From positions 62,001 through 126,000 of the forward strand of contig KV748248.1 in the NCBI GenBank assembly GCA_001692895.1: a stretch of 64,000 nt of DNA, read 5' to 3'. The notes beneath the pieces were generated by a model. The model was not told the origin of the DNA, did not search any database, and saw only the letters and a list, made by a program, of their open reading frames with translations. Made by a program: the position numbers and the translations under genes. How positions within the stretch are numbered: the stretch's first letter is position 1; each line of letters opens with the position of its first letter. Below, in pieces: positions 9,120 through 49,106 of the stretch. Source of the DNA: Cenococcum geophilum 1.58. Its lineage: Eukaryota; Ascomycota; Dothideomycetes; Gloniales; Gloniaceae.

Positions 9120-10148
9120 TTTTTAAAAGGGTAAGTTTGGTAGTCCCTTTAAATATATCCCTTTTTTCCACATCTAAAATATTCTCCATTTGCGGCTTAT
9201 ATTCTTTATTTATTAGTTCCTAAGGGTATATAGAATTAAGTGGCGTTAAGGTCTATAGGGTTGTATATAGAGCTTTTAGGTTTTAGAGATAGATCGCGCT
9301 TTAGGGTATATATTAGTTTTATAGTGTTTTAGATATAAGATGTGGTTAGCTTTAAAAAATAAGTCTACTTATTATATTGGAGGTCTTTATTAATTTATTA
9401 ATATATTATAGTAAATTCGGGTAAGTTTTTTTAGCAGTTCTCTATCTATTAACTATGCTCTAATTTTATCTAAAATAGCTTAATAGAGAGCAGTAACTCT
9501 AGCGGCTTTATTCTAATCTAGTTTACTAATAAGGCCTAAAAATTCCAAAAAGAAGCTAGTAAAGTCTCGGTTCCATTATTATAGGTTTTTAAATTTAGTA
9601 ATAGCTATATGTTCGCGGCTGGCGTTATTATATATTCGTTCTAATAGAGAGATAAAGATTTTAAAATTAACGAAGGTGCCGTTATAAAAGAATAGGTCCA
9701 TAGTTTATGCAGCGTCTTTACTTAAATAAGATATTTTATAGCTAATCTTACTAGCTTCGGTAGGGTATTAATTATAGTTTATTAAAAGTTTAAGACGGAG
9801 CTTAGTTACGAAGGGATGTACGTTATTTTAATTTCTATTAAATATTAGAGGGTTAAGGAGCTTTTTAGATTTTATAGTAGGTACTAGGTTTATTATAGGT
9901 ATGGGTTAAGCTGCCGTTACTAGTTTAGGGTTTATATTTAATAGGTTGGGTTTATATATAGTTATTTTAATTTTGTTTATAGGTATTATTATTAGGGTTT
10001 CTAATATAAGTACTTTGGCGTTGTGGAGTTCTTTATATATTGCTTTAATTAATTGCTAATACTAAGCTTCTAGTATAGTTTGTTACTAGGCTAAGGTATC
10101 TATAAAGAACTGTTATATTATAGTTATTTATTCCCTAACTAGGGCCAT
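9120..10148 (-). pseudogene. Gypsy-1 gag
   Basis: Capsid/nucleocapsid protein of Gypsy-1. A start codon at 10148 opens MALVRE. The mid part reads like HPFVTKLRLKLLINYNQYPTE, then a SYLSKDAA.TMDLFFYNGTF segment and HIAITKFKNL, the conserved fungal Gypsy gag pattern. A knuckle YFRCGKKGYI.RDY near 9137-9183 fits C-x2-C-x4-H-x4-C with several Cys/His changed to Tyr. It precedes pol on the same strand, as expected, and is interrupted by many TAG codons. Confidence 0.85.
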
Positions 10149-10214
10149 AATAGTTAACGTGGCGGATTTAAGTTTGTTTACTATTTTAAAGGTATTAGTA
10201 TTAACGTAATATAA

Positions 10215-10517
10215 TATAAGGGCGTGAAGAGACTTTAGGGAAGATTTAAAGGAACAATATAAATTCTATCTAAATCTAAGGGTATATAGCTCTCGCTAAG
10301 AACAAGACGTTGCGTAAAGAAGAGAAAGAAATAACAAGAGAATTATATAATTAAATAGTTAGGGGCTTAGTGGTTAATGCGTGCGTATATACGCACGCGG
10401 TCTTTAACGGACTTCGGTAATTCGATTAATCTAGCAGATTTTGGTTAAAGCGTTGGAATTTATCTATCAAGTGTTTCACCGAGACATTCCTACTATAACT
10501 AGGCTAGTCCCGTTACA
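10215..10517 (-). repeat. Gypsy-1 5' LTR (minus orientation)
   Basis: On the minus strand it begins TGTAACGGGACTAGCC at 10517 and ends near CGCCCTTATA at 10215, about 303 bp. Its inner edge is followed by TTATATTACGTTAA, close to the CTATATTACGTTAA that follows the Gypsy-2 5' LTR, a shared primer-binding-site region. It contains a perfect 20-bp palindrome at 10379-10398. The partner LTR lies left of the window. The inner end is placed by comparison only. Confidence 0.65.
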
Positions 10518-11430
10518 CTAAGAGGGAAATTATCCTTATTAATGTTAAGAACGCGTATAAAGCGGATAAATAGTAGTAATTTAGGGGAAGACTTTAATAA
10601 AGGATTATCCTATATAATCGGCAGCTGGTTAATAGAGAAAGGGCAGAAACCTATAGTTATAATATTATATATTTTAACTTTTTGCCTAACTTCCTCAAAT
10701 ATATATATATAGGTGGTGGCCTTTTATAGCATTTCATTGGCATTATAAGTTAACGCGTTTTAGTAAGGCTTACTAATAAAATCACGCTAGCTAAGGTGCC
10801 CGTAGTATGCTAACCTAAGTAAGAGTATCTAAAGCGCCTAATATAAAAAGTTTCTTTTACCAGATAAAGGGATATAGAGCTTAAAGCTCCTTACTATTTG
10901 GTTACAAATCGCCTCTATATTATAACTGTTCAATTTATACGCCTTTTAGTATTACCTATTTTATAATTAGTAGCGGCTACTACTATAGCTTATTTAAATC
11001 TGTAATTTAGTTAATTATTTAGTAAGGCTCTAGAATAAGACTCTAAATTTAACTTCGTATATTAATATATAATTAATATTAGTAGGTAATTTAAAAGAGC
11101 CCCTCTGTGCCACTAGGTCTCTATCACAACTCCCTACTTTAGTATAGCAGTAGAGCCTCCTCCTTAACTAATATCCTCTCTACAATTGGCGTTTTCTACA
11201 TCTTTACCCACCTCCTATACAAACCCCCTAGAAACAGGCTTATCGCGATTAAGAAGGTTAAGATAATAATATTATAAGGCATGCAAACGCGACTATAGTA
11301 TCGCGATTAGGGTATATATTTAGAACAAGCTGTATACTAGTATAAAGAGAACAGTAGTAAAATAAGTGGGTGTCCTAAATTCTATAGCTAATGCGCCCCT
11401 TAATAGACACTAAGTTAGTAGTAGAGCTTT
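10518..11430 (-). other. Downstream flank or C-terminal extension of the partner ORF
   Basis: About 0.9 kb with no recognised gene. Minus-strand translation from 11430 to roughly 11000 stays open if TAG/TAA are read as Gln, so the partner protein may extend into it. The part nearest 10518 looks non-coding. Nothing else is seen. Confidence 0.35.
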
Positions 11431-13975
11431 AGGAGTTACTAATTAGCCTTATATTAAGCACGGAGTCACCAGTAATTTATTCTTCCTTAACTATATTTTA
11501 AATTAGGTATAGATCTAAAGCTCTAAAAGCTATATTAACTTTACATTCACTCCGCTCTACTAATTAAATGGTTAAATCTAAAGTCTATATTAATTATAAC
11601 TCCGGCTAGGAGCTCTAATCTAATATAATTACTACCTTAAAGAGAAAACTAGCAGACTTTAATCACTAAGCGCGAAATTGCCGCATATTGCCTAGCACAT
11701 CGCCTAGTTCCTTAAGCGGCAAGCCAGTAAACTTCTATTACTAAGCGCGAAATTGCTGTATATTACCTAGTATATCGCCTAGTTCCTTAAGCAGCAAGCT
11801 AGCAGACTTCTATTACTAAACGTGAAATTGCTATATATTACCTAGCATAACACCCAGTTCCTTAAGTAGTAAGCTAGTAGACTTCTATTACTAAGCGCGA
11901 AATTGCCGCACATTACCTAGTATATCGCCTAGTTCCTTAAGCGGTAAGCTAGTAGACTTTCATTACTAAGCGCGAAATTGCTGTATATTACCTAGCATAC
12001 CGCCTAGTTCCTTAAGCGGCAAGCTAGTAAACTTCTATTACTAAGCGCGAAGTTGCCGTATATTGCTAGGCATATTGCCTAATTCTTTAAATTATAAGCT
12101 AGTAGGCGTCGCCTATTAGTAGATTATTCTAATATATTAGCTCGTATATTGCCTAGTTTCTATATTATAAGCTAGTAGACTTACTACATTAACAGAGCAC
12201 CATAATATATAGCCTAGCGCATTACTTAGGTCCTTAAATAGCAAACTAGTAGGCGTTGCTTATTAATAGAGCACTGCGATATATCTAATTATGCGTTGCC
12301 TAGTTCCTACATCGCAAGCTAATAGGCGTCTCTTATTAACAGAGCACTGCAATATATCTAATTGTACGTTGCCCGTTTCTTACATTATAAGCTATAGGCT
12401 GCTCTTATAAGTAGAGTATTCTAAATATTGGCTTATATATTGCCCAGTTCCCGCGTTATAAGCTAGCAGCTTCTTTTATTAACGGAGCACTGCGATATAT
12501 TACCTACGTATTTCCCGGTTCCTTAAATAGTAAAATAGTACCTTCTCTTATTAATAAAAGAATTGCGGCATATTACCAATATATCACCTAGTTTTACAAA
12601 AAACAACTTAGTATATGCCTTCTATTAGCCGTAAGACTGCGGCATATCGCCAAGTACATTACTTAATTCTATAAAAAAAATCTAGTATTTACCTTTTACT
12701 AACCGTAAGACTACGGAATACTGCCTACTCTATTACCTAATTCTAAAAATAATAGTCTGTTATACTTCTTCCACTAAAAAAGAATTTACGGTAAACTACC
12801 TAGCATATTACCCAATTCCGCGCTAAAAGAATTAAAAATATATCGCTACTATAATCTATAATATTTGCATTAGCTGCTTCTTTAAATTTCCGGACCTATT
12901 TATATCTACATTCTTTTTAAACTTAAGCTTATTTAGAATTCCACTTTCAATACAGAAAGCCGTTAATAGTAATACCCTCTATAATAGCCTTTAGAAATAA
13001 TAAGAGAATTTATAGTCCGTTTAGCTGCTTCTATAAGTTATAGATTATATAGTCTTTTTACTTTAGTAGTATTCCTCCAGGGAGGCATATAACGGCATCC
13101 TTACTATATTTAGCAATTAAAGCCTAAAATAAGTGTTAGCTTAGAGTTTTAGTTAAGCATACTACTATTAAAAGATAAAAAGATAGAGTATTTTACTACT
13201 TACTAGTATATATACCGCCCTAATAAAGAAAAAATTAAGCTACAATAGTCTTCAATATATGGTGCTGCTATAATTTCTTTATAGATAGCTAAAAGTGTCT
13301 TAAACTTCGCGTTATTATAAAGAATTTCCTCCTTATTCTAATCCAAAATACTTCTAATAAAAATTTTAACTACATTAGTGTGGTATTAGACTGGACGTTT
13401 ATTTTTTTTATTATCTAGAAGATTCTTATTAAATCTATCCTTCTATAAAAGTAACCCGGGCGTTATTACTGCATCATAGTATATAAAGTAGCTGCTTAAG
13501 GAGCTGCTAGCCATTTGTGCTAGTTTTTTCCCAGTAGGAGAACCATCTTCTCTTCATTTGACTATTTTTTACTAAAATACCTCATCTATTTCTAATACTA
13601 TTGCACCTTCTATACTGTATAGGAATTTAAGTTCTTTAGTTTTATAATTACACTTTATATATTAAATTTAGAGCTCGCCTGGGACAGCTTTTAGTTTTCA
13701 GTTATTAAAGTTAATAGTATCCCAGTTACGGCGAATGAGAAAATTTACAAGAATTAGGCTACTAACCTTAACTAATTCTTTATATGTTATAAACTATAAA
13801 GCACTTTTAGGGTTACTCCTTCCCTACTTTAAAATTGGGTCTATAGTTTAGCTATTTTATTAACTATCGCGGATATATATTTTCTAAATATACTAGGTTA
13901 GCTTAAGTGGTTACCCAATCTATATCTTTAAGGGCGCTTATAATAAACTAGCATATATTTATAACACTATTCTTT
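11431..13975 (-). pseudogene. Partner ORF A, C-terminal part with 25-residue repeats
   Basis: This is the continuation of the minus-strand protein that starts at 28092, interrupted by the LTR element at 13981-24369. The segment at 13.98-12.83 kb reads, among others, REDGSPTGKKLAQMASSSL, then SYFIYYDAVITPGLLL and YNNAKFKTLLAIYKEIIAAP. It passes in frame into about fifteen 25-residue repeats. After the repeats the frame continues (SASFLFKVVIILD, then CKVNIAFRALDLYLI) to a stop near 11430 that could be a former Gln. No family was recognised. Proximity to and divergence from a transposase suggest an element-encoded accessory protein. Confidence 0.6.
11666..12820 (-). repeat. 75-bp tandem repeats encoding a 25-residue repeat
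   Basis: Units start at 11666, 11741, 11816, 11891, 11966 and 12041, each exactly 75 bp. Older, more diverged units follow to about 12820, roughly 15 copies in all. On the minus strand each unit encodes a peptide like LLLKELGDILGNIQQFRA followed by three former Gln/Trp codons and KSAS. The array is in frame with partner ORF A. The exact multiple of three supports a coding origin. Confidence 0.85.
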
Positions 13976-13980
13976 ATTAC
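13976..13980. repeat. Target-site duplication ATTAC (left)
   Basis: ATTAC precedes the left 165-bp LTR and recurs at 24370-24374 directly after the right LTR. Confidence 0.85.
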
Positions 13981-14145
13981 TGTTACGGCTTAAACAAATG
14001 CCTCTAAACCGAAGCTTGAACGAATGCTGTATTACGAAGATACTAAGCTAAGGAGCAGAAGAAGGTTAAGGAAAGGACATGTCTATATACAGGCGCCAAG
14101 TCTCCAAGCGAGCCCCTGACTAGGGTCTGTAACGGTGCCGTGACA
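13981..14145. repeat. 165-bp LTR, left copy
   Basis: TGTTACGGC...GCCGTGACA, with a TATA-like TCTATATACA in its second half. The same family forms a solo LTR at 48950-49106. Confidence 0.88.
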
Positions 14146-14162
14146 TTACCCCCTTCTTTAAG

Positions 14163-14182
14163 AAAGCCTACCCTTAGGCTTT
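14163..14182. other. 8-bp-stem hairpin next to the left LTR
   Basis: AAAGCCTA, loop CCCT, TAGGCTTT: a perfect 8-bp stem 17 bp inside the left LTR. It is the first of many hairpins in the interior. Confidence 0.7.
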
Positions 14183-14261
14183 GTCCCCTTATAGAAAAGA
14201 AAAAGAAAGAAAAGAAAAAAAATCTAGTATCTGGCGCTCGATCGCGATGCTAGTTAATATA

Positions 14262-14520
14262 GGACTTGCAGCAGTCCTACAGCTCCTGCTGCTGCGGGGG
14301 TATATCGCTATACCTGGTTAATATGGGGCAGGCAGCCGTCATACAGCTCCTGCTACTGCGGGGGGTATATCGCTATACCCGGTTAACGTGGGGCAGGCAG
14401 CCGTTATATAGCTCCTACTACTGTGGGGGGTATATCGCTATACCCGGTTGACGTAGGGCAGGTAGCCGTCCTGCAGCTCCTGCTGTTGCGAGAGGTGTAT
14501 CGCTAGGAGCCCTCCGTTAG
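14262..14520. repeat. 65-bp tandem repeat, about four copies
   Basis: The unit GGCAGGCAGCCGTC...CGGTTAACGTGG is repeated head-to-tail. It includes CTCCTGCTACTGCGGGGGG and the small palindrome TATATCGCTATA. A 61-codon open frame across it reflects repeat composition and is not a gene. Confidence 0.8.
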
Positions 14521-17500
14521 TCGTCGTTCCTCCTTTTAGGACTTCCTAGAACTCCGGTACCTCCTAGCTCTACTATCCCCCCTTTTGTTATAGCGCGCCC
14601 CGAGCTATAAAAAAAAAGCCCCCCTACTCCCCCTCTTATAAAAAGGTAGGTGAAAAAGTTTTAATAAGGGTGGGAGGGTTAGGGAGTTATAGCTCGCATA
14701 TATATTAGCACGAGCTCTTGTCCGTTCGGTAGCAGTATAGTACTAGTAATAGGGTCGTATTCTAGGGAGTAAAGCTCTACCTAGTTGTGTTTAGGCCGCA
14801 GGCGTATTGGCGCGGTGACTTATTGGGATTATAGCAGTACGGTGCTAGTGACGGGCCGTATTTTAGGGAGTAAAGCTCTACCTTATATACAGTTATTACT
14901 ATAGGCGGAGTAGTAGAAGTTGGTTGGCTATAGGTAGGGTAGTAAGTAGTTGATTAGCTGCAGGCAAAGCAGCAAGGGTTAGTCGGCTGCTAATAAAGTA
15001 GTAAGGGTTAGTTAGCTGCAGGCAGAGTAGTAAGGGTCTATTGCGATAGTAGGCGTATTGGCGCTATTATTATCTAGTACTAGCAGTACGGTGCTAGCGA
15101 TAGGGTTATTTTCCGTAGGCAAATTGGTATGGAATCTTGTCGGCTCGTATGCGTATTAGCATGAGGTCTTGTCTACTCGCAGGTATATTGGCGCGAGGTC
15201 TTGTTAATATTGTAGTTCCATAGGCATATTGGCGTAGAGCTTATTAATTCGGGTAGCAGTACGGTGCTAGCGGTAGGGTCGTATTCTAAGGGGTAAAGCT
15301 CTACCCTGTATATAATTACTGTAGGCAGAGCAGTAAGGGTCTATTTGTTTAGCTGTAGGCGGAGTAGTAGGTATTAGTTAGCTATAGTTAAGTAGCGAGG
15401 GTAGGTTGGCTGCAGGCAGAGCAGTAAAGGTTAATTAGGGTGCTGTAGGCGGAGCAGCAGAAGATGGTTTACTGCAGTAAAGCAGTAAGGTATTGGTTTA
15501 GCTATAGGCGTAGTAGCAGAGGTTAAGTGGCAGTACGGTGCTAGCGTTAGATAGTTGGTTAGGCTATAGGCGTATCGGTACAGCCGTTGTTTATTTAGGG
15601 TAGTAGTATGGTATAAGCGGTAGGGTTATATAAGGGGCAAAGGTCCACCTTATATACAGTTATTACTATAAGCAGGGCAGTAGAAGTCGGTTATAGTGCT
15701 ATAGGCAGAGCAGCAGAAGTCAATTAGCTATAGGTAGAGCAGTAATAGTCTATCGTAATAGCAGTACGGTGTAAGCGTTAGGTGGTAATAGTGATCGAAT
15801 ATAGAGCTCGGTTTATTAGTTAATCGGTAGATTATAGGTATACCGGTATAATTGGTCTGTTGGTTAGACTATAGGCGTAGTAGTATAGCCGTTGCTAGGT
15901 TGGCGTAAGGCATGCAGCCGTCCTATTACTGCGAGGTGTATATCGCTAGGAGCCCTTCGTGGTCGTCATTTGTCCTCTTAGAACTTAGTGCCTCCTAGCT
16001 CTCTACTCCCCCCTTTAATATAGCGCGCCCCAAGCTATAAAAAAAGAAATATAGCTCGTATGCGTATTGGCACGAGCTTTTATCTATTTAGTAGCAGTAC
16101 GGTACTAGCGTTAGGGTTATATTTTAGGGAGCGAAGCTCTACCTTATATACGGTTATTACTGTAGGCAAAGTAGTAGAAGTTAGTAGTAGTGCTGCAGGC
16201 AGAGCAGTAATAGTTAAATTAGGATTAGCTGCAGGTAGGGCAGTAAGAGTTAATTAGCTACAGTAAGGCAGCAAGGTGTTAGTTTAGCTGTAGGCAAAGT
16301 AGTAGAGGTTAAGTGGCAGTGCGGTGCCAGCGTTAGATGGTAGATAGTAGGCGTATCGGCGCTATTATTGGTTAATTGATCGCAGGCATAACGGCACGGT
16401 TAGTTAATTAGTTTGCATTTAAATTGTATTCGAATCGCATTTGGATCGCAGGCGTGACGGCGCGATTATTTTCCAGTTTGTCCAAATCGATTTCATTATT
16501 AAAGCTTACACAGCTCAGTATTAACCTCGTTGTTAAAGTGTACAAGTGCCTAAGATAAAGCTTATATAACTCAGCATCAACTATAGTCGTTCCTTAGTAT
16601 GCGTAGCTCAGTATTAGTTAAAAAGGATCACCGTAGGCGGAGAAGAAGACGATTAAATCAGTAAGGGAGGCAGTTAATTATCGATGAACTTATACGGTCG
16701 TTGTTAAAGTCGTAATAGCAGGCGTATTAGTGCTATTATTCAGTTAGTGGATCGTAGGCATAACGGCACAATTAGTTGGTTGGCTTCTCAAGATCTACCG
16801 TTAATCGGTAGGTAGTTCAAAATATTATTAATTATTTGATTAATTAATATACCGTTAACTAGTAGAGATGCTATCGTATTACTAGTTACAGTTAATCGAT
16901 TGGTTAAAGGTATGCTATTAATCGTAGCACATTTAACCAGTTATTATACGAGTAGGGTATTAAGGGAGACGCGCCGATATATTAATTCTCGTTAAGGTAT
17001 TCAATTAAGGTATCGGTGTATAGTCTGTCGATATTCTTATAATTCTCAAAATAGGTCGTCGTCAAATAGTAGACGTGTTTAAGTGCTGTTAGGATATTCG
17101 AAGGTACGCTATAGAGTTAACAGGCGTATTCGAATACTTATATTTGATTAAGGATATCGTTATAAGTAATAGATATCTAGGATTGATTAAGGACTCGTAG
17201 GAATGCCGTTATAATTTAGCATATTACATCGTTATCCAAGAGGTATTAAAAGAGGTATTAAGAAGGTACGTGTTGATATTTCAAATCTTGTTAATAAATG
17301 GTAAGACATGCTTTTGTAATAGCAAGCTGTCTTATTTATAGAAGGTTGTATAAAAGGCTATTAAGAGGAACGCGTTAATAGTTTGTAAGAGGTTGTAGAG
17401 ATGAATAGGCTTATCTATAGAGCTGTTGGAGAGTGCCATAAATTGGAGTGATTCTCCTAATCTGTTCTCCTAATTAAGAGTGCTATAAATCACTTAAATT

Positions 17501-17900
17501 CTCCCATAGGTTCCTAGTACCCTGTACATAGGACTGTAATACTTGTAGATGTATTCGGCCGTAAGATCGAGAGACTATCTAGGTTAATAGTAAGGTTCAG
17601 GTCGATTAGGTACGGTAGTTGTTAATGAGAACTTGACGGGTGTCTATAAGGGCGTTTATAGACAGGTCGGAGAGTTGTCGTGTCGCAGGCATATCGGCGC
17701 GACAGGTTATCGGGTTTGCTTTCGAATTACGTTCGGGCCGCATTCGAGTCGCAGGCGTATCGCAGGCGTATCGGCACGATTGTTCGGTCAGTGGGACTGT
17801 AGGCGTATCGGCACAGTCGGTAATCGGGTTTGGGGGTTTAGGGTGGCAGTATGGTGCCAGCAAGTCCTTCCTAATCGATTTCATTTCTCCTTGTACGGCT
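14521..17900. repeat. Hairpin-rich internal region of the LTR element
   Basis: Non-coding, comparatively GC-rich and lightly RIPed. It carries three intermixed hairpin families. One has loop AGGCGTATYGGC and variable complementary stems (for example 15176-15197, 16053-16078, 16714-16737, 17681-17704, 17795-17818). One has loop GTACGG and TAGCA/TGCTA or TGGCA/TGCCA stems (14832-14847, 16314-16329, 17844-17859). One has a 7-nt loop AGGCRRA and GCTGC/GCAGC-type stems (14957-14973, 15318-15334). A block at about 14460-14720 recurs at about 15910-16080. Short open frames at 16060-16257 and 17606-17947 overlap these repeats on both strands and are not genes. Confidence 0.8.
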
Positions 17901-17962
17901 TAGTATCAATCGGGGTAGTTATCGCAGCAGTAGTAGCTAGAGAATAACGGGTGGGATTCGTT

Positions 17963-18038
17963 CCAGAGGACTTCGCGGACAACATGCACCTACCGCCCAA
18001 TGGCACGGCGCGGGTCACAAGTCAGCTCGTCTTGGCCG
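17963..18038. repeat. 76-bp direct repeat left of the nested TIR element
   Basis: It begins CCAGAGGACTTCGCGGACAA and ends near CGTCTTGGCC; it recurs at 23752-23827. The two copies lie outside the inverted repeats of the nested element, in the same orientation. They are among the least RIPed DNA in the window. Confidence 0.8.
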
Positions 18039-18062
18039 TCGGCCTGAACCTAATGGTGGTTA

Positions 18063-18104
18063 CAGGTCGGCTAGGCCACGCTAAAGGGTGGGTCTACCAT
18101 AAGC
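18063..18104 (+). repeat. Left terminal inverted repeat of the nested element
   Basis: CAGGTCGGCTAGGCCACGCT and onward to ATAAGCG. It pairs with 23691-23731. Confidence 0.75.
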
Positions 18105-18179
18105 GCTAATGCACAATCCCTGCACGGGGCAGCCTCAGCTGAAAATATAAGATTACGTAGTCAACCAAGCCTAAATCAC

Positions 18180-21100
18180 TCATCCCACCATATAACTTAC
18201 CTCCCGGCTCCAAAACAGAACCAACTATTATAGGTAACTAGTTATAATATATTTATAACGTATTCGGAATATATTCTAATTTAAATAGATCTATTTAATA
18301 ATTACTAGCTACTAGATTTCTCTAGTAATAATAAAAATAAGTTTAAAATTAATTCGGAAGACAGTATTTTTAAGTTAGAAGATTATATACTAGAAAAAAG
18401 TTAAATATAGCCGCAAGATTAGATTAAGGTAAGTTTTTAACATATTTTAAATACGTTTTGGTCTAGTTCTAAATATATTTAGCCCAAAGTTCCTTATATT
18501 ATATTTCTTACTAAGGCATCTACTAATTCTCTTACTATACTTATAATTAAGAATTATTTAAGCCTTTTAGAGTACCTATAGACGCTAAATAAAGGTTATA
18601 CTTACCGTATTAACTTAAGAGGCACAAATGCATAAAAAGCCATATAGGTAAGTTAATAAAAATCTAAATTATACTCTAACTATATTTATAACTAGTTTAT
18701 AACACATTTAGATCTAATATAAAACTAGATAAGTGTATACTCCTAAGCCTATAATATCCGCTCTCTTAAATATAAGAGGTAAAAAATATAAAATGTGTTA
18801 TTTAGGAGTAAAACAGTGCGAATATCTTTAGAATTTATTATAATCTTTAAGATATACTATAGTTTCTAAAGAGACATAGGGTCTAATATAGAGAGAGTAG
18901 GCAGCCCTAGATAGAAGCGACCTAGATATTCGCAAACGTAATATAAATAGGTACGGAACTAGTTCTAAATCCATTTAGTACTTAAGTTAATATATATAAG
19001 CTTGTTTTTAGCAGCCCAAAGATAATTTTAAGCTAGAAATATATATAGCTCTTAAATAGAGGCTTATGCACTAATAATTAAGCAATAAAGATACTCTATA
19101 TATAATTATTATACCTAAATATATTTAGAACCCAACCAAATTACATTTAGAACTAATTATATTAGGATATTACTAATGTTTGGCACTTATTTCTTACTTA
19201 TACGTAGGCTACTATAGAAATATATTTAAAGCACTTCCAAAAAGTATTACTAGCGAATAAGAAATATAATACTGCGTATTTAACATCTCTTATTTAACTA
19301 GGTAATATAGGTAATAAAGTAATAAAGTAATGCGGAGTTATTAAATCAAATCTCTATAGGAGGGTAGACTATAGTAAGAAAAATATAACCTACTTAGAAC
19401 GCGTTTTAACTACGTTTATAATATATTTATAACGTATTCCTAGGAATTAACTACCCCTAGGGACTAGGGAAATTTATCTATTAGGACTACAAGGTTACTT
19501 TTTATATTTTTATTCTAGACAACTTAGAAGAAACTCCTTATATTTATTTTACCTCGCATAGGGTATATAGTTATACACCACCCCCCCCAAATAAGCCGCC
19601 TCTAGAGATACTAAATGAGGTAATTAAGTTGGTTTGTTAAATGCGTAATCTAGATCTTACCCTTAGTAAATATATTTTAAACTAATTGCGAATAAATACC
19701 TAACGTCTTTATAGGAAAGTTTCTTTAAAGTCCTACCCTTAAATAGTTTTATATAGAGTATAGGAAGGCCTCTTTAGCATAGATCTATATAAGCTTTGCT
19801 ACCATAGATCGTATTACTAGATTAATTTAAAAAGAGAAGCTTACTTTATACCTAGAAGGAAAAGGACTAGTAGGGGTAGTATATAAGTTTAATTAAAAGC
19901 ATTAAAATCCTAAAATAGTATATAAATATGTTATAAACGTGTTCTAATAGGCTTGCTAATATATTATAGGCTTATATCTAATAGATCTATAATAATTAAA
20001 ATAGAGTTATAATAATCTACTTTCTATAAGAGCAAGCTAAGATCTTCTTAGCCTAAACTATATTTAAAGTTAATATGTCTTTTAAACGTATTATTAAAAG
20101 AAATATAAACGAGATTATATTCGCTGTTTGGCTTAAAGAGCATAGTAAAAGTATTATTATATAATATAAACCCGTTTAGAACGCGATACTAATATATTCT
20201 AATAGTTTTTACGCTTATATATATTATTACTAATANNNAAATAAGGCGTACTTNCNAGTTANNCTTTAAGNAAGTCTTTTAATTACTTTCTAAATATCTT
20301 TAAAAGTAGATTTATTAGAAATATATTTATAGTAATAAGGGAGGCTTTAAAGCTATTATATCTAATATAGATGGCAAGCAAATAGCTAGTAGGATACCTA
20401 GAACGTAATTAAAATACCTTCCTAACGTGTTATAAAAGGGTTTAAGCGATATCTACAGCATATTGATCCTTAGAGGCGTAATTGGACGTAGCATCTTAGA
20501 AAAACACTAGTTTTCTACTAAGTACACTTCCTATAAAGCATCTCAAGAGCTACGGGTAACTATAAAATTGCCTACTCTATATATAAACGGATAAAAGCTC
20601 TTCTTATATATAGGAGCCAGTTAGAATATAAAGAACTCTATAATTTACTAATTAGTAAGCTATTCTAAACCCGTTTATAATGCGTTTAGAAGGTATTAAT
20701 AGTATAATACACGAATCTTAATTAGTTACTAACTGGGCAAGATATAAGAGACACCCAGTTATCGCCTTAGGGTTAAATAAGCACTGCTCTCTAATTAATT
20801 ATAAGCTATTTAATAGATTAAGATACTATATAAATACAGTAGAACAAACAGCAAATAAATCATATGCATTTAGTATACATTAGTTTCTTCTTCCTGCCAT
20901 TATAAGGTATTAATATGTTCCTAACCCGTTTATAATATACTTATATTATATTTAGCGTATAAAAACTAAATTAACGGGATATTAATTAGTATTTTACTTA
21001 GAGCTAGTTCGGAATATAACATATATAAAGAAATACATTAATGTTAGCCTAGTATGCAAACCATATAGGTAGAGAGAGTATATATTTATTACGAACCTCT

Positions 21101-21600
21101 TCTAAACTGGTTCCTAATACGTTTAGAACAAAAACGTTAATAACTTTAAGAGAAATTAGAGCAGGCCGCTGCTAATAATAGTAGAGATAATATTTTATTT
21201 TATACATTATTATTAGGTGTAGTAAGGTCATAATCTAGTTCTGCTTAACGTTTAAGGGGGCCAAGATCTAAATCTATATCGCGTTTTAGGTTATCCTCTA
21301 TAGCATCTAAGGAATTATAAGGCATATTTATATTCTAACGTATACATAACCGGTTACTAATATATTTTAGGCGTATTAGCACCAGTCTCTCGCAGTTACT
21401 AAAGCGTTAGGCCTTAAGTAATAACTAGGATATTTAGGAAAGACGCTAAAGGCTTAAACTTTATAAAATAGAGATTAAATTAGAGGTAAAAGAGCTAAAG
21501 AATATAGAAAAAAGAATTTAACTAGAGGCAATAAAGGCTTATATGCAAAAATAAGTATACTAAATATAAAATACATTCTAAATATATTCCTATTGTGTTC
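18180..21600. other. RIPed interior of the TIR element, no gene recognised
   Basis: About 3.4 kb of TpA-rich DNA. Six-frame reading gave only broken fragments and nothing matching a known transposase. The repeating signal is a dispersed motif of 11-bp period of the type TTCTAAACGCG-TTATAAACGYG, for example at about 19420, 19930, 20668, 20913 and 21103. N bases at 20236-20271 mark an assembly ambiguity. Confidence 0.6.
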
Positions 21601-21625
21601 CTATTAAAATATACTTATATTTAGG

Positions 21626-22330
21626 CCTTTTTTATACTTATTTAATTATATAATGTCTAATACTATATATAATACTATATACATAGCCTTTAGACTATAG
21701 CGCTATAGTTCTATATATATATATCTATTTTAAGCAACTTAATAAATATTAGTAATTATATATTAATAATTTATAAATCTTTTAATTAGGAATTTATAGT
21801 TATTTAATAAAATACTAAGATACTAATAACTATTAAATAGTAAAAAAATAGAAAAAAAGACTATAAGAAATATTAATACCTCTTTATTCTATTTAATAAA
21901 AATCTATTATTTTACTTTTTACTATTTATATATTTAAGCCTTATTTATATATATAAATAAAGTTACCTATAGAAAGTTATTAGTTAATACTTAATTTAAA
22001 ATATATTAAATAAAATAATAAGTCTTATATTAACTAATTTTATAATAAATTTTATATATTATTTAAATAACAATTTTTAAAAATTTTTTATAATTATTAT
22101 ATTAGCTTAAAATTTATATACTTTAAATTAGTAATATTTATTTAAAATTATATAATACAATATAATTTAGAAGGGTTTTTTTAACTATATAATTATACTA
22201 TTTTTAAAAAATTAGAATTTATAATTAAATTATTAGAATTATAAAATATATAAAGGGAGTTATTAAAAAGAGCTAAAGTTAGTAAAATTTAATAGACATT
22301 ATAATTTAACTAATAACTTTTATTTTCGCT
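21626..22330 (-). mobile_element. Truncated, heavily RIPed LINE-2 copy (3' end)
   Basis: Read on the plus strand, 21680-21720 (ATAGCCTTTAGACTATAGCG) matches the reverse complement of the LINE-2a 3' end near 39750-39830. The similarity continues through the block AATTAGGAATTTATAG and the block AGATACTAATAACTATTAAATAGT, which match 39650-39720 reversed. A T-run near 21626 would be the poly(A) tail. The 5' truncation point and target duplication could not be fixed. No protein domain survives. Confidence 0.7.
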
Positions 22331-23690
22331 ACCTAACGTGTTATAAATATATTCCGAAGTAGTATAGAACCCTATTAAAATTTAAGTCCAAATTCCATCT
22401 ATAAGATTCTATTTATAACGTGTTATAAATACGTTATAAACTAGATTCTAGGTCATCTATAGAAATATAGCTACTGCAACATCCTCCTCTATAATTCTAG
22501 CAGGTTTAGCAGCCTTTTTCTTTATAGCCTTTAAACCTTTTAAACCTAACTTCTTTAAACCCTTTTTAGAAGTCTTAGTAGGAGCTAAAGTAGGAGTCTT
22601 AGTATTATCCAACCCATTATTAAGGAAGCAGCTCTAATTAAGATAACCCTTAAATAAGCAAGCTGTAATAAATTTAGAATATATTCTTAACCGGTTTAAA
22701 ACGGGTTCCAAATTAACTTATAATTAGAAGTTATGTCTAAACACTTAGCACATAGAACCTTAGCACCTAAATCTTTAAGCAGAGTAACTATTCTAGGAAA
22801 GTTATACTAGGAAATAAATTAGAACATATTATAAACACGTTAGGAATATCTTACTTCGCCTTTTTAAAGCCCACTCTTAAATCTAATAGGCATAACTTTC
22901 TCTTAAACGGGAGCTGTTAATTATGGGGCAGCAGTTCTAGAAGGGCGGCTAGGGGGAGTTGGGGTAGGGGTATAGGGGGGTTAGGCAGAAGTAGAGCGGC
23001 ATAGACTAGTAGGATTATATTTGGAAGCGGTTCCTAACACGTTCTAATTATATATAGCCATAATCGCAGAATAGAATGCTATAATAGGTTAGTAACTAGT
23101 TATAAATATATTAAGAACACGTTTAGAATATATACCTATTACTTCTTCTTACTTTTTAATAGAAGAAGCCCCTCCCTTTCCAACATTCTTAGTTCTAATG
23201 CTATGCTTCTTTATATAGTTTCTAAGGGCGCCGCAGTCTCTAACCTTTTTCTAAACGCGTTATAAATATATTAGCAATGCATTATAAACCTAATATACTT
23301 ATCTACTTACCCTATACAGTACTAGATTCTCTAGATTAGGCAAGACATTATACTAACAGAAAACCTCCCCTATAGTTAAATCCACCTCGTTATCGCGCTA
23401 GTATCGTATTAGAAACGTGTTCTAAATATATTTAGAACTACTTACTATAACGAAAGCATTAACTCCCTTAGGGAGCCTCTCCATTTCCAGGTAAGCTTCG
23501 TAGGCAGCCTAAACCGTTAGAATATATTTAGAATAGGTTACGGATAGCTTACACAGCTCTTTAGAGTGCTCGACATCGTGTTTTAAATAGATTTTAAATG
23601 TATTTAATAGATTTGTAATAGAAGGTAAGGTAGAAGGTAAGGTCAAAATAAGAGAGGGAAGGTCAGATTTAGTGTGGTGGGCGGAGGTTT
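22331..23690. other. Right interior of the TIR element, no gene recognised
   Basis: TpA-rich, with a dense run of the 11-bp-period motif (about 22331, 22411, 22683, 22820, 23031, 23098, 23255, 23404, 23520). It includes a perfect 20-bp palindrome, GTTCTAAATATATTTAGAAC, at 23419-23438. No coding trace could be supported. Confidence 0.6.
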
Positions 23691-23731
23691 CGCTTATCGG
23701 GCCGACCTTTTAGCGTGGTCCAGCCGACCTG
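23691..23731 (-). repeat. Right terminal inverted repeat of the nested element
   Basis: The inverted match to 18063-18104, with several transition differences and one short gap. Confidence 0.75.
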
Positions 23732-23751
23732 TACGCACAACCTAATGCATA

Positions 23752-23827
23752 CCAGAGGACTTCGCGGACAACATACACCTACCGCCCAATGGCACGGCGC
23801 GGGTTATATCTCGGCTTGTCTTGGCCG
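23752..23827. repeat. 76-bp direct repeat right of the nested TIR element
   Basis: The second copy of the 17963-18038 sequence, nearly identical over the first 52 bp and more diverged afterwards. Confidence 0.8.
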
Positions 23828-24204
23828 ACACCGCGGGATTAGTTTTAGGCTTAGTAACAGGATCACTTTTTATTCCTTACAGCCCTAGGCTAAGTCTCAA
23901 CCGGGGTCGTCTCTGTAGCTCGTACAACTCCGTATCAGTCGAAAAGGTCAGAGGGATAAGATATTATTACCTTCCCAGGCAGTCGTCCTTATCCACAGGA
24001 GACCTTCTAGCTGCTTGAATACCGGCTCCCAGTATCAATAATAGCGACTCGACGCGTCGACGACGCGCAGCTAGGGGTGTTCAACGCGTGTCCCCTTAGA
24101 ACACGCGGAACGGGGGTGGGAGATTATCCAGGCCTTCCCAGGCAAGGTAAAGAGGGAGCTTCAAACCGAATGAAGTCCCCCCCGGGTGGGTGAGCTTAGT
24201 ATAA
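23828..24204. other. Right internal end of the LTR element, non-coding
   Basis: Lightly RIPed. It contains the palindrome TCGACGCGTCGA near 24050. A strong hairpin with arms CGCGTGT/ACACGCG near 24086-24108 is extended by GTTC/GAAC. The last bases before the LTR (GTGGGTGAGCTTAGTATAA) are not a typical polypurine tract. A 65-codon open frame at 23821-24018 has no recognisable product and is doubtful. Confidence 0.6.
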
Positions 24205-24369
24205 TGTTACGGCTCAAACAAATGCCTCTGAACCGAAGCTTGAACGAATGCTGTATTACAAAGATACTAAGCTAAGGAGCAGAAGAAGGTTAAGGAAAGG
24301 ACATGTCTATATACAGGCGCCAAGTCTCCAAGCGAGCCCCTGACTAGGGTCTATAACGGTGCCGTGACA
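24205..24369. repeat. 165-bp LTR, right copy
   Basis: It differs from 13981-14145 at four positions, all transitions of the RIP type. It is followed by the duplication ATTAC at 24370-24374. Confidence 0.88.
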
Positions 24370-24374
24370 ATTAC

Positions 24375-48949: not shown

Positions 48950-49106
48950 TATAAAGGCTTAGTTAAAAGAATAGAATCTATTGGTAGCTAGTAAACGAGA
49001 ATTCCAAAACAAGGTCTGGAAGAAGGTCGAGGAAAGGACACGTCTATATACATGGCGCCAAGGCTCGGCTAAGCCCCTGACTAGGGTCTATAACAGTGCC
49101 GTAACA
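48950..49106 (+). repeat. Solo LTR of the 165-bp family inside the Helitron
   Basis: It ends GACTAGGGTCTATAACAGTG and then CCGTAACA, clearly homologous to the 165-bp LTRs over the last 90 bp. It starts TATAAAGGCTTAG, aligned to TGTTACGGCTTAA. It is about 157 bp and flanked by GTTAC on both sides. Removing it with one duplication restores the Helitron frame as RLNRVKDVTFLNFLLYF. A 65-codon open frame at 48981-49178 spans this LTR and is not a separate gene. Confidence 0.8.

Follow-up and report, generated by a model that had tools for sequence, protein, structure and literature searches.

The window analysed here, a stretch of 64,000 nucleotides of Cenococcum geophilum 1.58 (contig KV748248.1, positions 62,001–126,000; C73:62001–126000 in our numbering of a genome of 177,193,698 bases on 162 contigs), contains a non-coding long terminal repeat (LTR) retroelement at window positions 13981–24369. 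Within this element, a 12-nt loop, AGGCGTATYGGC, recurs in an array of short hairpins, termed class A, whose six-base-pair stems change from copy to copy but retain complementarity. Selection on the hairpin structure is strongly supported by the covariation of the arms, and we tentatively read the array as a recognition module that acts at the level of the RNA. The exact loop is found at 674 sites genome-wide (352 + 322), compared with 37 (20 + 17) for a reversed-pattern control.

Between window positions 14000 and 18000, the arms of 18 plus-strand loops with at most two mismatches form 75 of 108 Watson-Crick pairs at the six innermost positions. When the 3' arms are re-dealt among the same copies (arm-swap), 45.9±5.0 pairs are obtained with a maximum of 64 in 5000 swaps, and 0 of 2000 swaps reached 75 in a repeat run. 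Because arm-swap keeps both the composition and the loop, the excess in the window is real, which answers the concern raised by the first-pass annotation that the complementarity might be no better than chance.

A genome-level sample of 461 non-identical copies with at most two loop mismatches, taken from loci L001–L050 (L and C denote labelled loci and contigs), yields arm-swap z values of 8.8, 2.5, 14.9, 15.7, 20.7 and 9.1 at positions 1–6; the copies are related by descent, such that these values are not independent and the tests on single elements are cleaner. The pairs in excess include transversions, namely A-T at position 3 (73 versus 14.6 expected) as well as C-G (27 versus 2.3), T-A (21 versus 2.5) and G-C (35 versus 7.7) at position 5. 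Among the 2305 cells at positions 1–5, 479 hold A·C or G·T, the mismatches left by repeat-induced point mutation (RIP), and 97 hold transversion mismatches, for which the table expectations sum to approximately 316. Purine/pyrimidine pairing, which is unaffected by transitions and hence blind to RIP, also exceeds that of swapped arms (n = 457), with 0.94 versus 0.70 at position 3, 0.94 versus 0.74 at position 5 and 0.86 versus 0.65 at position 6. Positions 1, 2 and 4 are nearly fixed as Y-R, R-Y and Y-R (Y, pyrimidine; R, purine), and the changes occur at positions 3, 5 and 6. Since the covariation includes transversions, RIP alone cannot produce the pattern and is ruled out, consistent with the earlier proposal that different stems around one fixed loop reflect selection on structure.

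All six pairs are purine/pyrimidine complementary in 381 of 473 copies, which fall into five classes, the largest of which holds 224 of the 381. Four of the five classes are shared by at least two element groups and several are present within the window element, ruling out an origin from one tandem unit, which the first-pass annotation had put forward as the alternative. A gapless alignment of 110 sequences, drawn at random from 189 arm-distinct copies without regard to pairing (the draw leaves out 21 of the 30 loci L001–L030), has a covariation score of 0.610, compared with 0.320±0.019 for shuffled and 0.111–0.268 for slid controls. Double changes are observed at all six pairs of this alignment, but the shuffles reach that count too. 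Upon a rough grouping of copies into sites, the 32 sites with at least six copies have 192 inferred inner pairs, of which 154 are Watson-Crick; 24 of these sites have at least five of six pairs, and 14 distinct stems are represented.

Hairpin census and predicted fold

All eight hairpins quoted in the first-pass annotation are present where it had placed them, with a badly decayed loop in the copy at 14691–14716 and four loop mismatches in that at 15831–15852. A class A filter, allowing up to four loop mismatches and requiring at least five of six purine/pyrimidine-complementary pairs, retrieves 19 candidate matches over 14146–18046. The match at 15127–15150 is counted as an overlap artefact, leaving approximately 18 hairpins, in agreement with the 15–20 recurrences estimated previously. 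All are assigned to the minus strand, and their arms are given here in plus-strand reading. Six of six Watson-Crick pairs are formed by the hairpins at 16054–16077 (GCTCGT/ACGAGC), 16714–16737 (AATAGC/GCTATT), 17681–17704 (TGTCGC/GCGACA) and 17795–17818 (GACTGT/ACAGTC). Full purine/pyrimidine complementarity is accompanied by five Watson-Crick pairs at 15111–15134 (TTCCGT/ATGGAA), 15562–15585 (GGCTAT/ACAGCC), 15830–15853 (GATTAT/ATAATT, the copy with four loop mismatches), 15867–15890 (GACTAT/ATAGCC) and 16444–16467 (GATCGC/GCGATT), by four at 15045–15068 and 16343–16366 (both GATAGT/GCTATT) and at 16750–16773 (GATCGT/ACAATT), and by three at 15216–15239 (TTCCAT/GTAGAG) and 16378–16401 (GATCGC/ACGGTT). 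Five of six positions are purine/pyrimidine complementary at 15175–15198 (ACTCGC/GCGAGG), where all five are Watson-Crick, and at 14794–14817 (GGCCGC/GCGGTG), 15143–15166 (GCTCGT/ATGAGG) and 17758–17781 (TATCGC/ACGATT), where four are.

Hairpins of this shape also emerge from an unseeded scan for perfect stems of at least 6 bp, which returned 185 hairpins with a 12-nt loop, compared with 73–125 at each other loop length from 4 to 16; the commonest of the 12-nt loops are those of class A. The loop length is fixed, with 12 nt found in 202 of 244 AGG…GC hairpins having at least five of six pairs (lengths 7–18 were scanned), and the stem is bounded at 6 bp, as purine/pyrimidine pairing at position 7 is 0.34 versus 0.30. 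A 13-nt variant of the loop gives 199 matches versus 19 for the control; the 100 places listed consist for the most part of two sequences at dispersed positions, and we read them as another repeat.

The sense strand of the element appears to be the minus strand because of a minus-strand polypurine tract (PPT), a Tf1-like self-priming site and the existence of gag loci with a related, minus-oriented LTR and a matching site; therefore, the loop in the RNA would be GCCRATACGCCT. Loops with up to one mismatch all lie on one strand in 50 of 50 loci (L001–L050), as do the multi-copy clusters of the exact loop on C1–C4 (21 of 21). In the predicted sense fold of five of seven hairpins, the variable 6-bp stem is separated by a 3' CU bulge from two putative inner G-C pairs, which close a hexaloop such as CGAUAC.

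The element carries two further classes of hairpin, both assigned to the minus strand. Class B comprises approximately 10 hairpins of the form TAGCA-GTACGG-TGCTA (plus-strand reading) within 14730–17859, identified using a pattern that allows transitions, with cores starting at 14732, 14834, 15083, 15256, 15530, 15603, 15761, 16094, 16316 and 17846. The exact core GCAGTACGGTGC occurs at 498 genome sites (243 + 255) versus 5 for the control, and its genome copies show no arm-swap excess. An excess is present for the shorter core AGTACGGT, probably from the mixing of members with chance matches. Of the 68 class B sites on C1–C4, 57 are located within 5 kb of a class A site, on the same strand in 57 of 57 cases, and 42 of the 58 class A clusters on these contigs have class B within 5 kb. 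In our reading of the sequences, the class B sense hexaloop CCGUAC resembles the CGAUAC of class A. The class B motif is also seen in regular triplets spaced by approximately 70 nt (C4:1103188–1103340, C5:4124378–4124530 and C6:1731579–1731731). A search of viral contigs returned three isolated matches to a 16-mer of class B and none to one pattern of a full class A hairpin. Class C comprises 14 hairpins of the GCTGC-AGGCAGA-GCAGC type (plus-strand reading) within 14898–16303. The pattern used to retrieve them tolerates no changes other than transitions, and the absence of transversions in the window therefore carries no information. The excess of pairing in class C is modest (z mostly 3–6, purine/pyrimidine positions 1–5) and may reflect a mixture of members with chance matches.

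The host element and its relatives

The two 165-bp LTRs, located on the minus strand at 24205–24369 (5') and 13981–14145 (3'), are 97.6% identical, have TG..CA ends and are flanked by the same 5-bp target-site duplication (TSD), ATTAC, at 24370–24374 and 13976–13980. The primer-binding site (PBS) TTATACTAAGCT (sense; minus strand, 24193–24204) lies within 24 nt after the minus-strand LTR and is complementary to the segment AGCTTAGTAT of the LTR itself (minus strand, 24264–24273), a 10-nt match obtained in 0 of 200 shuffles. A TATATA box (sense LTR position 57) lies 40 nt upstream of this self-primer segment, an arrangement consistent with the complement being placed at the 5' end of the RNA. 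A role of the hairpins as priming signals, suggested previously, is thus not needed. At the opposite end, the PPT AAAGAAGGGGGTAA (sense; minus strand, 14146–14159) precedes the 3' LTR, with the purine tract AAAGAAGGGGG adjoining the LTR on the minus strand, and the LTR/PPT junction pattern is found at 12 genome sites versus 0 for the control. A further hairpin, AAAGCCTA-AGGG-TAGGCTTT (sense; minus strand, 14163–14182), adjoins the PPT, and a close copy precedes the PPT of the gag-only locus L056. The longest stop-to-stop frames within 14147–18046 are 117 and 97 amino acids (65–167 in five relatives), such that no coding capacity over 117 codons is present, as measured on that part by stop-to-stop length only. 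Together with the LTR pair and the TSD, the lack of a long open frame there bears out the earlier placement of the hairpins in an LTR element devoid of gag and pol.

The element is interrupted by a nested DNA transposon at 18056–23738, which is not part of it and is itself RIP-eroded, with 9-bp flanks AACCTAATG and inverted ends of approximately 30 bp beginning GTGGTTACAGGTCGGCT and GTGCGTACAGGTCGGCT, as judged by eye; the relative L040 is uninterrupted and lacks this transposon. A partial relative of the window-type (family I) LTR is located at 49019–49106 in plus orientation, with 86% identity over 90 aligned positions. A search of window positions 10000–22000 against Rfam gave no match at E≤1, that of five loci gave three matches, which are confined to L042 and fall far short of the gathering scores, and a tRNA search of six loci found none. 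Known RNA families (Rfam including ribozymes, tRNA and 5S) therefore have no member over threshold in the stretches searched.

Following contig order, twenty regions with the exact loop were examined, of which nineteen lie on C1 and one lies on C2; two C1 clusters (near 2,234,788 and 5,762,013) were skipped because they belong to element copies already listed. In 18 of these, the loops have paired arms, whereas L031 and L037 each contain a single loop that is unpaired. In every case with a recognisable LTR pair, the class A arrays sit in non-coding LTR elements, and these fall into several groups. The LTR pairs of group II (L032, L035, L043, L044, L047, L049 and L050) and of group III (L041) have no match to the family I LTR, and L033, L039 and L046, which have no clean LTR pair, are assigned to group II by array resemblance. 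Group IV (L036, L038, L042, L045 and L048) has partial LTR matches, and only L036 resembles the LTR of the gag elements over its length (83–84%). The pairing exceeds arm-swap in each group, with 171 of 270 pairs versus 117.9±7.2 in group II, 40 of 60 versus 26.7±3.7 in group III (L041 alone) and 66 of 90 versus 46.9±4.1 in group IV. Certain single loci do not stand out by purine/pyrimidine count (L046, 235 of 2000 swaps; L036, 351 of 2000) or are weak by Watson-Crick count (L046, 69 of 2000; L051, 66 of 2000; L053, 50 of 2000). Purine runs adjoin the LTR in group II (AAAAGAAGAG) and group III (AAGGGGGGGG), and the self-priming 10-nt match is found in the window element, L051 and L052 (0 of 200 shuffles each).

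A related LTR (approximately 80% over 136 bp) is present in minus orientation at the gag loci L054 and L055, which likewise have a self-priming site (0 of 200 and 2 of 200 shuffles, respectively), where AGCTTAATAT/ATATTAAGCT near the same LTR/priming place represent a compensatory change with respect to family I. L055/L056 constitute a gag-only LTR element (C45:29081–30781) with LTRs that are 98.4% identical and a frame containing an in-frame stop. It has a self-priming PBS, a hairpin before the PPT like that of the window element and a PPT, and a CCHC knuckle is encoded in the downstream gag piece (L056). The element contains no class A loop (up to three mismatches) and no exact class B core, class C having been searched in the L056 part only. 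A likely second gag-only element is located at C7:859808–861502, with two LTR-like ends that are each 97% like that of the C45 element. There are 28 gag places in all, four of them on C1–C4, and a class A loop lies no more than 3 kb from one of these four; it apparently belongs to a neighbouring small element in L042.

Candidate function and rival explanations

We suggest, with rather less than even confidence, that the hairpins serve non-autonomous, self-primed LTR retroelements as a recognition module at the level of the RNA, one that most likely recruits Gag in trans. In the sense RNA, the variable stem of each hairpin would be topped, beyond the 3' CU bulge and two G-C pairs, by a hexaloop (CNNUAY), and a protein may read the bulge and loop, such that the stem need only be a helix. 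The most likely reader would be the Gag of partner elements, a relative of which encodes a CCHC zinc knuckle, and an RNA devoid of coding sequence could, through many sites acting jointly, attract Gag in trans and be packaged; after insertion, the copies would be eroded neutrally by RIP. We propose a role of Gag on the grounds that a gag-less RNA must attract Gag in trans, whereas gag-bearing relatives need not, and that repeated stem-loops of variable sequence do so in some single-stranded RNA viruses (PMC3662417). The lack of class A hairpins in the gag-only relative is as expected if the array serves recruitment in trans. An extension of this idea, which we regard as unlikely, is that the array is a transferable RNA 'passport', that is, modular hairpins common to non-autonomous elements with unlike LTRs. 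Each element would then be the cargo of any particle-forming protein that reads the hexaloop and CU bulge, and the constant-stem class B hairpin would be a second form of the same site.

Several observations weigh against recruitment of Gag by a sense RNA hairpin. A retroviral psi is usually found in the 5' leader, whereas the array occupies the middle and 3' part of the sense RNA. The gag-only relative has a related LTR but no array, indicating that the array is not required for mobilisation. Moreover, no gag-pol partner was found, nor was any pol found with the gag-only elements, and self-priming was looked for in groups II and III and not found (best match 5–7 nt). RNAalifold predicted no pair on the 110-sequence alignment, which we think is due to the many copies broken by RIP. 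The folding z scores are weak, with means of -0.76 for the loop strand and -0.96 for the sense strand (19 windows of 200 nt; approximate shuffles), and the predicted energy is lower on the loop strand than on the sense strand in all seven folded hairpins. Wobble pairs are neutral with respect to strand (G·T 209 and A·C 270, compared with 345 and 414 expected), and the site-level inference gives 13 sense wobbles versus 8. RNA rather than complementary DNA (cDNA) would be the acting form under our reading, a choice that wobble and energy do not favour.

The same selected structure could instead be bound by a host RNA-binding protein involved in export, stability or evasion of silencing, which is doubtful taken alone but nearly as likely as Gag. 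A common host factor would more easily account for the occurrence of arrays in several element groups with mutually dissimilar LTRs, and the gag-only element that has a family I type LTR and no class A hairpins also fits; on the other hand, no Rfam family over threshold, and hence no known host RNA with this motif, was found in the stretches searched, host mRNAs lying outside that search. It is very unlikely, in our view, that the hairpins work as part of single-stranded cDNA or of an antisense transcript (loop AGGCGTATYGGC), where they might, for instance, guide reverse transcription or strand transfer. The Watson-Crick, strand-neutral pairing, the wobble counts that do not favour sense and the lower energies of the loop strand would all fit such a role, but the self-priming site, PPT and LTRs already provide the known steps and the gag-only relative dispenses with hairpins of class A.

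Other explanations dispense with selection for a reader. Reverse transcription is prone to template switching, and copying of one arm onto the other could keep the stems complementary without selection. Such switching has been reported both to generate RNA hairpins and to maintain them (PMC8794818). We nevertheless regard such a mutational origin as quite unlikely here, since the fixed 12-nt loop, the bounded 6-bp stem and the near-fixed purine/pyrimidine identity of positions 1, 2 and 4, while 3, 5 and 6 change, point to constraint. The first-pass annotation had also considered a mobile hairpin comparable to yeast mitochondrial GC clusters. A self-inserting micro-element of that kind, or one like double-hairpin elements, would agree with the many copies, some stepped by approximately 36 nt. 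This we find highly improbable, because each locus has one orientation, the lone loops of L031 and L037 lack paired arms and the combination of variable stems with constant loops is the reverse of that given for GC42 (PMC4478555). Finally, although the element is RIP-eroded and rich in short repeats and RNAalifold finds no pair, it is scarcely credible that the pattern arose by chance or through RIP acting on a tandem repeat, chance being ruled out by the arm-swap, slide, purine/pyrimidine and unseeded controls.

Relation to known systems and neighbouring repeats

To our knowledge, how non-coding retroelement RNAs are chosen for packaging by the particle of another element is poorly understood. 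Terminal-repeat retrotransposons in miniature (TRIMs) measure around 1 kb or less and the LTRs of large retrotransposon derivatives (LARDs) several kb; the window element measures approximately 4.7 kb without its insert, its relatives with an LTR pair 1.7–4.1 kb, and its LTR 165 bp, placing it outside both size ranges. The element nevertheless shares with TRIM/LARD and with Helenus/Ajax its LTRs, 5-bp TSD, PBS, PPT, non-coding nature and presumed dependence on an autonomous partner, and TRIMs with small-RNA-derived LTRs are known (PMC10886601). It differs from TRIM/LARD in having an internal region of approximately 4.4 kb (approximately 1.4–3.8 kb in relatives) with hairpin arrays and, in family I, self-priming. 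As in Tf1/sushi (PMC7175516), the PBS can pair with part of the LTR of the element itself, over 10 nt here and 11 nt in Tf1; unlike Tf1/sushi, the element is non-coding and the LTR-PBS pair covaries between the gag loci and family I.

The single-stranded RNA viruses MS2 and STNV (satellite tobacco necrosis virus) have dispersed packaging-signal stem-loops (PMC3662417), and the array resembles these in placing several stem-loops with a short conserved loop motif along one RNA of otherwise variable sequence. It differs in residing in a non-coding LTR retroelement, in its 12-nt loop and in having a protein partner that is putative. Short repeated hairpins are also a feature of yeast mitochondrial GC42 (PMC4478555), where stems are constant and loops variable, whereas here loops are constant, stems vary and each locus has one orientation. 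Retrozymes (PMC4918200) are likewise non-autonomous retroelements with functional RNA structure, which for the present elements we infer, but no Rfam ribozyme is found over threshold in the stretches searched. Among the titles and abstract beginnings listed by searches of an open-access literature collection, none describes hairpins of this kind in LTR elements; if the passport reading is true, the array would be a selected multi-site packaging array in non-coding retrotransposons, for which those listings contain no example. With approximately 18 natural stem variants around one loop in one element, compensatory changes can reveal which part is recognised. A record of structure thus persists in the purine/pyrimidine pairing of RIP-eroded elements, making this test usable in other RIP-damaged genomes.

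Outside the element, a tandem array with units of approximately 75 bp (5.9 copies according to TRF, Tandem Repeats Finder) occupies window positions 11649–12090 and continues in diverged form to approximately 12750. The sequences AGGCGTATAAGGC and AGGCGTATATGGC, matched by the pattern of the 13-nt loop variant, recur genome-wide at scattered sites and apparently belong to a different repeat.

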